NCBI GenBank assembly: GCA_008501735.1
Contig: QQUF01000021.1
Coordinates: 1-60,379 of the forward strand
Direction: 5' to 3'
Source of the DNA: Calditrichota bacterium
Lineage (GTDB): Bacteria > CLD3
Length of the DNA stretch: 60,379 nt
Under the pieces are notes generated by a model. The model worked only from the letters and a program-made list of their open reading frames with translations. It did not search any database and had not been told where the DNA came from. The position numbers were made by a program, and so were the translations under genes. Positions 15,468 to 29,227 of the stretch are shown here, piece after piece (position 1 is the first letter of the stretch; each line of letters starts with the position of its first letter).

Positions 15468-16061
15468 TTATTTTCTATTTTTTGAGTATTCTTCGTACAA
15501 AAATTTCAAACCTCTTCGAAAAAAGAAAGAAAATTTAACTTCAAAATCACCCTCGTAACCCCAGAAATTAATTTTCGGAACGACTTGAAAATTTAGCTTC
15601 TTGAAAGCATTTAAACTAAAAAGATAACCGCTTACCAAACCGCTTCTTGCAGGTTCTCCGAGTCCGAGAAATCCAGTCGCTCGAATATAATTAAGACTGA
15701 AAACTTTTCTGACAAGTTTAAAAATTCTTTTAGGAGTAAAAAAACTTTGCTTCGGTTCTGAAGTTTCCTCTTCCGAGACTTCTTCTTTTTCCTCTACTTC
15801 TTCAAATTCTTCTTCTTCAGAATCCTCAGTTTTGTCAAAAGGTTTTATTGCTTTTAGTTCTCTGTTAAAAAGAAAAAGCCTAACCGTTTTGTCTTCGTAG
15901 ACATAACTTAGTCGGATTTTTGGTAAAGGTAAAAGCCAAAAGATTTTAGCAAAAAAACTAATTTCCTTAGCCTGAAAGCCAAAATTCAAAGTAATTTTAA
16001 GTGGAAAAATTACCAATAAAACTAAAATTATAAACGGTAACGAAATGCAAAACCAAAGCAT
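15468..16061 (-). CDS. Membrane-anchored DUF2953-like protein
   Basis: A 197-aa protein with one N-terminal TM segment (residues 3-24, MLWFCISLPFIILVLLVIFP), an acidic low-complexity stretch (about 75-100, rich in E) and a C-terminal domain with GFLGLGEPARSGLVSGYL, which resembles the GLGDP-TG motif of DUF2953. That family has no known function; in Firmicutes it accompanies sporulation genes. Here it is 18 bases upstream of the TPR/SLH-like gene on the same strand, suggesting an envelope role. Family assignment is moderate. Confidence 0.6.
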   Translation of the reverse strand: MLWFCISLPFIILVLLVIFPLKITLNFGFQAKEISFFAKIFWLLPLPKIRLSYVYEDKTVRLFLFNRELKAIKPFDKTEDSEEEEFEEVEEKEEVSEEETSEPKQSFFTPKRIFKLVRKVFSLNYIRATGFLGLGEPARSGLVSGYLFSLNAFKKLNFQVVPKINFWGYEGDFEVKFSFFFRRGLKFLYEEYSKNRK

Positions 16062-16113: not shown

Positions 16114-16142
16114 TTGACAATCAAAAAATGTGTCGTTAAATT
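16114..16142 (+). promoter_or_regulatory. Sigma-70-type promoter candidate for the structured RNA
   Basis: TTGACA (16114-16119), a 17-base spacer, then TAAATT (16137-16142). The initiator tRNA at 25.9 kb has the same -35 box and spacer length, which supports this architecture in this genome. Transcription would start near 16150. Confidence 0.55.
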
Positions 16143-16149
16143 AATTTTC

Positions 16150-16337
16150 ACAATTAGCCAAAGTTAAACTCTTGGAGCCAAATTTTATAGAAAAACCGTT
16201 ACAACTGACTTACTGATTTCTTAAAAGAAATTTTCCCGATTACATTTTTACGTTTTGTAATTATTTTTTAGTATGTCAATTGTAACGGCTTTTTTATGCA
16301 AAGCCTAAGTTCAGTTGACCTTTGGCTTTTTTTATTT
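16150..16337 (+). ncRNA. Structured RNA candidate: leader/attenuator or free-standing small RNA
   Basis: This fills most of the 356-bp gap 16062-16417. Arm 16186-16213 pairs with 16271-16298 over about 28 positions with 3 mismatches and 2 wobbles. Inside lie two hairpins: ATTTCT/AGAAAT (16216-16231) and ATTACA/TGTAAT (16239-16261), giving a three-way junction. A strong terminator follows at 16300. CAACTGA of the 5' arm (16202-16208) is also perfectly complementary to TCAGTTG (16311-16317) in the terminator loop, so two exclusive folds are possible. I do not recognise it as 6S, tmRNA, SRP RNA, RNase P or a known riboswitch. The 5' and 3' ends are estimates. Confidence 0.5.
16300..16337 (+). 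terminator. Intrinsic terminator upstream of the radical SAM cassette
   Basis: AAAGCC-T-AAG (16300-16309) pairs with CTT-T-GGCTTT (16320-16329) with one T-T mismatch and a 10-nt loop, followed by a long T tract broken by single A bases. It points toward the 16418 gene, so it ends the structured RNA or attenuates the operon. Confidence 0.8.
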
Positions 16338-16417
16338 TATGCAGAAAGGAATGCGGTTTGATTAATTGATACCATTTAACTTTTAAACTTCTAAACTAAA
16401 TTCAAGAGGTAAGTAAA

Positions 16418-16672
16418 ATGGTTAATCCAATCCCTGATTTGGTACCAAACGAGTTATTCACACAACTCGAAAAATTTAACTTTTTAAACGAACGAGCAAT
16501 CCGCGACTACGAAATTCGTAAGCGTTTTGCTGACTTGAAAAAACGAATGTCTGCTCACGAAGCTATTGAAGAAATTCGAGATTCTTATCCCTACCTTTCT
16601 TACGACACTGTCAGAAAGATAGCTTACACTTTATCGGATTTCGAGAAGAGAGTTTCTGAGTTTGCTTTTTAA
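16418..16672 (+). CDS. Small helical protein of unknown function, HTH-like
   Basis: An 84-aa protein with SD AAGAGG 8 bases before the ATG. It is predicted all-helical and highly charged; AHEAIEEIRDSYPYLSYDTVRKIAYTL reads like a helix-turn-helix with the turn near YPYLS and recognition helix YDTVRKIAY. A DNA- or RNA-binding regulator is plausible but unproven. It is the first gene after the structured RNA and is 15 bases upstream of the radical SAM gene, so it is probably co-transcribed. It is similar in size to RiPP recognition elements but lacks the PqqD pattern. Confidence 0.75.
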   Translation: MVNPIPDLVPNELFTQLEKFNFLNERAIRDYEIRKRFADLKKRMSAHEAIEEIRDSYPYLSYDTVRKIAYTLSDFEKRVSEFAF

Positions 16673-25862: not shown

Positions 25863-25891
25863 TTGACATCACTTTTTAAAGTAGTTACATT
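25863..25891 (+). promoter_or_regulatory. Promoter of initiator tRNA
   Basis: TTGACA (25863-25868), 17-base spacer, TACATT (25886-25891), 14 bases before the mature tRNA 5' end. It is the clearest sigma-70-type promoter in the window. Confidence 0.85.
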
Positions 25892-25905
25892 GGTCGCCCT
25901 TACAT

Positions 25906-25979
<74 letters not shown>

Positions 25980-28069: not shown

Positions 28070-29227
28070 TTAGAGTTGTTGTAAAATTTCAAAAATTTCT
28101 TTTCCATTTAAGCCTCTTAACCTAAACCAGCACTTAGACTTAGTTAATCGCCTGTTCTTAAAATAAACTTCAAAGTTGTTGAAGAAATTTCTTTTGAATG
28201 AGTCTAAGCCAAAGATTGTTCCGATTTTCTCATTCCTAAGCTTAGTTGAAATTAAAATTGAGTTTTTGCCAGTCTTATTTGCTAAGGTTCTTGCAAAGAT
28301 TCTCAAAAAACCTAATTCGAAATGACCAACCAAAACACAGAAATCGGTTTCATCATTGCCATAAAATTCAAAATTGCCGTTCTGCAATTTCTCCTCAAAT
28401 AACTTTAAAAGACTTTTTCTTTGCAAATATTTTTGTATTAGAATCTTCAAACAATTTTCAAGTTGCTTAGTTTCTTGTCCCTCAGTTAAAACCTTAAAGA
28501 CTAACTCAGAACGCCCAAATCTTAAAGCATTGACTAAAATTTTCATCAAAAATTTTTGCTGTTCTTCAAAGCACTTTGGCGTTTTTTCTTCAACTTCAAA
28601 AATTTCAAAGAGATTTTCTATCCGTAAGCAAAGCTCTTTAAGTTGAATTTCTAAATTTTCTTTTCTTAGGTTAGAGAATACTTCAAAATTACTTCCGACT
28701 AAAGCTGTAAACCCATTTTGGAAAGCCAAAAGTAAAGGTAATTCGTTTGGTATTCCGAGGTTCAGTTTTTGCACAAGTGTCCAAACTAAAGTAACTGGGT
28801 TCTCTGAAAAAATTTCTTCATTTTGTGGAAAGTGAATGGAATTTGGAATTTCAGGTTTTTGCGAGAAACCACAAATTAAAACGAAATCAACATTTTTAAG
28901 TTTCGAGGAATTAAGTAAAATTTTGAATTGATTTCCGAAACCTTCGTTTTCTCGAGTTGCAAAGTTTAAAGAAGGTGAAACTCCGTTTTGCTTTAAAATT
29001 TTGTAAAGCAAAACGGCAGAGCAAACAGCTTCAAGAGTGAAATCAACGTGAAGTAAAACTCGTTTTGATTTCAAGGCTAATTGGAAATTCTTTTCAAAAA
29101 GATTTGAGTAGTGAGTTGGAAGTGGAAATTCTAAAATATTTTTGGATTCGGCTTTTTCACCAAAAATTAAATCTTCTAAAATTTGGGGCATTTCCGAACT
29201 TGGAAGGCTTTCAAGTCCTTTTCTCAT
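28070..29227 (-). CDS. Degenerate RecJ/DHH-family protein, probably catalytically dead
   Basis: A 385-aa protein that follows the RecJ DHH-DHHA1 layout but has lost its catalytic residues. LLHVDFTLEAVCSAVLLYKIL (58-78) stands where RecJ has its DYDVDG motif; only D62 remains. ATRENEGFGNQ resembles the next strand, and LICGF (117-121) replaces the metal-binding DCG. There is no DHH triad. FGRSELVFKVLTEG matches the RecJ linker region, and FELGFLRIFARTLANKTGKNSILIS the DHHA1 domain. Function could be structural, as in Cdc45. Assigned by pattern only, so moderate confidence. Confidence 0.6.
   Translation of the reverse strand: MRKGLESLPSSEMPQILEDLIFGEKAESKNILEFPLPTHYSNLFEKNFQLALKSKRVLLHVDFTLEAVCSAVLLYKILKQNGVSPSLNFATRENEGFGNQFKILLNSSKLKNVDFVLICGFSQKPEIPNSIHFPQNEEIFSENPVTLVWTLVQKLNLGIPNELPLLLAFQNGFTALVGSNFEVFSNLRKENLEIQLKELCLRIENLFEIFEVEEKTPKCFEEQQKFLMKILVNALRFGRSELVFKVLTEGQETKQLENCLKILIQKYLQRKSLLKLFEEKLQNGNFEFYGNDETDFCVLVGHFELGFLRIFARTLANKTGKNSILISTKLRNEKIGTIFGLDSFKRNFFNNFEVYFKNRRLTKSKCWFRLRGLNGKEIFEILQQL

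Follow-up and report, generated by a model that had tools for sequence, protein, structure and literature searches.

An uncatalogued structured RNA with a predicted promoter and tandem terminators upstream of a radical SAM gene in a Calditrichota bacterium

Introduction

Bacterial trans-acting small RNAs of the intrinsic-terminator kind are composed of their own promoter, a leader, a stem-loop, and a U-tailed terminator. The RNA described here resembles them in having a predicted promoter and a predicted intrinsic terminator of its own, as well as a secondary structure that is conserved with compensatory changes between the two genomes compared. 6S RNA (RF00013) and 6S-Flavo (RF01685) are alike in size, likewise have their own promoter and terminator, and form a rod that is also a possible fold of our sequence; however, in 6S RNA a closing stem formed by the 5′ and 3′ ends surrounds a large open bubble, whereas here the closing stem is found in only one of the two genomes and the middle of the stem is continuously paired. 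SAM-Chlorobi (RF01724; PMC2864571) is alike as a structured element behind a strong promoter, located 5′ of SAM-linked genes in another bacterial group, but it precedes metK/ahcY, whereas the element studied here precedes an 84-aa ORF and then a radical SAM enzyme, a consumer rather than a producer of SAM. SAM-Chlorobi is the nearest described system by theme, and not by sequence or gene context. Finally, Chlorobi-1 (RF01696) and Bacteroidales-1 (RF01693) (PMC2864571) are examples of orphan candidate RNAs that emerged from comparative genomics, and are also intergenic, lineage-restricted, structured with covariation, and functionally unassigned; the present RNA differs in having no match in Rfam 15, and in being known from two genomes, which is far below the depth of evidence usual for such orphans.

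The stretch of DNA analyzed here, referred to as the window, comprises 60,379 nucleotides of a Calditrichota bacterium (assembly GCA_008501735.1, contig QQUF01000021.1). A first-pass annotation had placed in it an undescribed, structured, three-way-junction RNA with two mutually exclusive folds, considered typical of an attenuator or riboswitch, with a free-standing small RNA of about 190 nt as the other reading. Taken together, our comparisons indicate that this is a real structured small RNA of an ordinary kind, uncatalogued and restricted to its lineage, and they favor the second of these two readings.

Results and Discussion

Genomic context and distribution

The promoter, long stem, internal hairpins, and terminator that had been annotated are all present (Table 1), in a gap flanked by two divergent genes. 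Because the upstream, DUF2953-like gene is oppositely oriented, plus-strand terminators within the gap must serve a transcript that is born in the gap, which leaves a small RNA and an interrupted leader as the two options for this RNA. Downstream of the radical SAM/SPASM gene, the window encodes a MnmC2-like methyltransferase and a DinB-like protein.

Table 1. Predicted features of the RNA locus and its neighboring genes (window coordinates; G001 is the comparison genome)
Feature	Position	Strand	Remarks
DUF2953-like gene	15468–16061	−	Start at 16061; DUF2953 match weak, below cut-off
Sigma70-type promoter, TTGACA-N17-TAAATT	16114–16142	+	TTGACA 16114–16119, TAAATT 16137–16142, spacing 17
Predicted 5′ leader	16150–16185	+	Start at ~16150 placed from the promoter; conserved block TTAAACTCTTGG at 16164–16175
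Long imperfect stem-loop	16186–16298	+	5′ arm 16186–16213, 3′ arm 16271–16298
Apical hairpins, two in the window genome	near 16213–16231 and 16237–16262	+	Predicted fold
GTCAATT in 3′ arm	16275–16281	+	Complementary to AGTTGAC in the terminator loop, 16313–16319
T6 run at stem base	16290–16295	+	First possible intrinsic terminator; T7 run at the G001 counterpart
Second hairpin, AAAGCC(T)AAG-N10-CTTTGGCTTT + T7	16300–16333	+	Intrinsic terminator, −9.6 kcal mol–1; arms AAAGCCTAAG (16300–16309) and CTTTGGCTTT (16320–16329), then T7
80-nt spacer to 84-aa ORF	16338–16417	+	Conserved block TTTGA(8–9)TACCATTT; Shine-Dalgarno
84-aa ORF	16418–16672	+	No known family; 66–68% identical in G001
Radical SAM/SPASM protein, 352 aa	16688–17746	+	Below all NCBIfam cut-offs

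All comparisons were made with one other genome of the family, which belongs to a related genus (MAG SJ803, contig JADZEA010000121; hereafter G001). This genome has the same order of a minus-strand DUF2953-like gene, an RNA gap, an 84-aa ORF (L027:2874–3116), and a radical SAM gene whose product is 80–82% identical to that of the window, while the gene order past the radical SAM gene differs. Within the G001 gap, a promoter pattern is accompanied by the conserved block TTTAAAACTCTAAGG..AAAAATATAGAAAA, and by a hairpin and a strong predicted terminator. A DNA match at G001:C239 was rejected as unrelated to the orthologous locus.

A covariance model of the RNA (R1) run against 98 genomes recovered the two known loci alone, and neither this model nor DNA searches gave a convincing second copy, antisense matches being the hairpin matching itself. 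The model also gave a weak plus-strand match at window positions 28512–28632 (26.8 bits, E = 0.1), which is probably due to chance. In the sister family and in KSB1 bacteria, the radical SAM gene is 49–56% identical, and is found there without an upstream 84-aa ORF or RNA. The same two genomes are thus the only ones from which RNA and 84-aa ORF are known, as expected of a cis-acting leader, and this counts against a small RNA, although the co-occurrence cannot discriminate between the two because only two genomes are involved.

We note that the 84-aa protein, which is kept in two genera within this family of genomes only, with the radical SAM/SPASM protein as its partner, has no relatives in phages, viral contigs, Pfam, NCBIfam, PHROGs, or the PDB. 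Those relatives of the radical SAM/SPASM protein that are found in KSB1 bacteria (~50% identical) are encoded downstream of a glycosyltransferase-like gene.

A promoter of the stable-RNA type

The pattern TTGACA-N17-TANNTT occurs at two sites in the 60-kb window, compared to 0.35 expected, with the second site situated where a promoter of the initiator tRNA would lie, 13 nt upstream of this gene (25905). The initiator tRNA-Met locus (window 25863–25979), with its TTGACA-N17-TACATT promoter and a hairpin and T-run following the gene, provides a local yardstick for stable-RNA promoters. Across the whole genome, there are 48 matches to the pattern, vs 23 to the same pattern read backwards, and inspection of 30 loci placed four sites directly 5′ of tRNA-fMet, of tRNA-Leu(CAA) together with SRP RNA, of a tRNA-Thr/Tyr/Gly/Thr cluster, and of tRNA-Leu(TAG). 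As these sites directly precede tRNA and SRP RNA genes, we assign TTGACA-N17-TAnnTT on sequence grounds as the promoter type of stable RNA genes in the source genome, with many matches of the pattern being due to chance. G001 retains TTGACA-N17-TAAGTT at the orthologous locus (L027:2612–2640), even though the flanking sequence does not align. Other sites of this pattern (e.g., L055, L056, L057, L070, and L071) have no known RNA gene behind them, and some of these may mark further small RNAs.

A hairpin conserved in shape rather than in sequence

The segment 16114–16340 folds with a minimum free energy (MFE) of −53.5 kcal mol–1, compared to a mean of −32.4 ± 4 kcal mol–1 for dinucleotide-shuffled sequences (z = −5.28, with none of 200 shuffles reaching this value), and the orthologous G001 gap folds at z = −5.27. 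The two genomes were aligned with MAFFT on sequence alone, and the consensus fold of this alignment again contains the long stem, which carries five double compensatory changes, of which three are in the base helix (CCGTTA/TAACGG in the window vs TTTGCTA/TAGCAAA in G001) and two further up; the annotation of an undescribed structured RNA, for which compensatory stem changes in relatives had been the proposed check, is therefore upheld. The energy of this consensus fold is reached in none of 500 column shuffles (z = −6.8) and in none of 400 shuffle-and-realign replicates (z = −8.3). The count of double changes is weaker evidence than the energy, being reached by 44 of 400 shuffle-and-realign replicates for the stem region, and by 12 of 500 column shuffles when the terminator is included. 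The RNA sequences themselves are modestly similar, to a degree reached by 2 of 1000 shuffles, whereas the encoded proteins are 66–82% identical. This two-genome comparison shows a predicted hairpin whose shape is under selection, but whose letters have not been preserved. The three-way junction proposed for this RNA, in turn, holds for the window, whereas G001 has one unbranched apical hairpin.

These observations bear on the suggestion that there is no RNA gene here, but rather an AT-rich gap with inverted repeats in tandem, whose folding is due to chance or which function as sites in the DNA. The AT-richness and low primary conservation of the gap are consistent with such an explanation, which we nevertheless regard as the least probable of those considered, in light of a z of −5.3 obtained separately in each genome, the compensatory changes, and the retention of both the promoter pattern and the U-runs on one and the same strand.

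Searches with all 4227 families of Rfam 15, including SAM-Chlorobi and 6S, gave no match at the gathering threshold at either the window or the G001 locus, and extending the search to E values of up to 10 gave only weak eukaryotic microRNA and snoRNA matches, far below their cut-offs. A whole-genome search with 6S (RF00013) returned nothing at E values of up to 10, and one with 6S-Flavo (RF01685) returned nothing above its cut-off, such that the 6S slot in this genome is open. A lineage-specific 6S RNA, that is, a rod that binds RNA polymerase, would fit this vacancy, as well as the length of ~185 nt, the promoter and terminator, and the closure of the window rod by its own ends. Such an assignment is nevertheless very improbable, as the RNA itself has no 6S-like match even at these permissive E values, G001 lacks the closing stem, and the mid-stem is paired where 6S RNA has its large open bubble.

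Tandem terminators

It had been noted that the T-run at the end of the stem could serve as a second terminator, and this run is conserved in G001. In both genomes, the long stem has a U-run directly at its base, and immediately behind this comes a second hairpin that likewise carries a U-run, the G001 counterpart of this second hairpin being AAGCCAACTTG-N10-CAAGTTGGCTT + T6 (−17.2 kcal mol–1). This succession of hairpin and U-run, occurring twice, is predicted to constitute tandem terminators in both genomes. In the spacer that follows, the similarity between the window and G001 is reached by 30 of 1000 shuffles, and its conserved block is possibly a separate weak promoter of the 84-aa ORF, or an operator.

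Alternative folds and the question of a switch

A cis-acting leader, whether attenuator or riboswitch, would make the RNA the 5′ UTR of the 84-aa ORF and radical SAM genes, with a signal selecting whether the RNA folds with its terminator intact or opened. Its position directly 5′ of the same gene in both genomes, and the shared distribution of RNA and ORF, are in line with this reading, as are the energetics of the window RNA when unconstrained MFEs of the predicted transcripts are compared: here, AGCCAAAG (16156–16163) can pair over its full length with the terminator 3′ arm, and the full-length RNA reaches −51.4 kcal mol–1 without the terminator vs −45.5 kcal mol–1 with it, so that the opened rod is ~6 kcal mol–1 better. 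The two exclusive folds put forward in the first-pass annotation are thus thermodynamically plausible in the window. They are, however, absent from G001, the one orthologue compared, where the MFE structure (−36.0 kcal mol–1) holds an intact terminator with no close competitor, and where the predicted transcript begins just downstream of the place equivalent to AGCCAAAG, and hence without the pairing segment. Similarly, CAACTGA (16202–16208) is perfectly complementary to TCAGTTG (16311–16317) in the window, as had been described, but this pairing has no comparable match in G001 and does not stand as a conserved switch.

Furthermore, the search for an aptamer core gave only short conserved blocks between the window and G001, with a similarity barely above that of shuffled sequences, unlike what is expected of an aptamer next to proteins conserved to the extent seen here, and no short ORF that could encode a leader peptide is common to both genomes. 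On the predicted folds, the proposed terminator/antiterminator switch is not supported by the single comparison available, and the attenuator or riboswitch character ascribed to the RNA has neither a conserved antiterminator nor aptamer-like sequence conservation behind it. Taking into account also the tandem terminators, which point to insulation, and the stable-RNA type of the promoter, we consider a cis-acting leader rather unlikely, although it is the strongest competitor of the small-RNA reading.

A different pairing does recur in both genomes. The seven-base complementarity between the 3′ arm and the terminator loop (Table 1) is also found in G001, as GTCAATT with AATTGAC, and the isolated GUCAAUU/terminator-loop duplexes have energies of −9.1 and −12.0 kcal mol–1 in the window and G001, respectively. 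This pairing is a possible pseudoknot. It could also belong to an RNA switch of a new kind, whose terminator loop, with A(G/A)UUGAC, invades the stem, and whose GUCAAUU pairs with either the 5′ arm or the loop; this is an improbable scenario in our estimation, but one in which the state of the upstream domain would be coupled to termination ahead of the 84-aa ORF and radical SAM genes.

A free-standing small RNA as the favored reading

Because of the tandem terminators, the stable-RNA-type promoter, the conserved spacer block, and the lack of both a conserved antiterminator and aptamer-like conservation, we favor a free-standing small RNA gene with a strong promoter of its own and tandem terminators, acting in trans via its leader, and judge this reading to be probable, albeit with some reserve. 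The alternative of a small RNA of about 190 nt, already raised in the first-pass annotation, is accordingly the better of its two proposals, given that the promoter type and the tandem terminators are found in both genomes and that sequence conservation is low.

For such a small RNA, RNA polymerase would start at ~16150 from the stable-RNA-type promoter, and produce a transcript with a partly unpaired 5′ leader followed by the long hairpin. The transcript would end either at the U-run of this hairpin (~16296), giving an RNA of ~147 nt, or at the second hairpin (~16333), giving one of ~184 nt. The second hairpin may serve as a backup, shielding from the strong promoter the 84-aa ORF and radical SAM genes, which would be served by their own leader sequence. 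The RNA would then use its conserved leader, AACUCU..GG, to base-pair in trans, with the hairpin providing stabilization. The leader block TTAAACTCTTGG corresponds to TTTAAAACTCTAAGG in G001, where the leader is mostly unpaired; in the window, it is partly within a small local hairpin, which counts against a small RNA with a pairing leader. We also note that the leader is no more complementary to the 84-aa ORF start or its Shine-Dalgarno region than shuffled sequences are (98/500 and 58/500).

Conclusions

As an ordinary small RNA without a known target, the element described here would be of modest interest in itself, while giving this little-studied lineage of uncultured bacteria a small RNA gene that is comparatively supported but unnamed. 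Should the cis-leader reading instead be true, it would represent a new regulatory RNA tied to an uncharacterized radical SAM enzyme. In addition, TTGACA-N17-TAnnTT sites can help to find stable RNA genes in this lineage.
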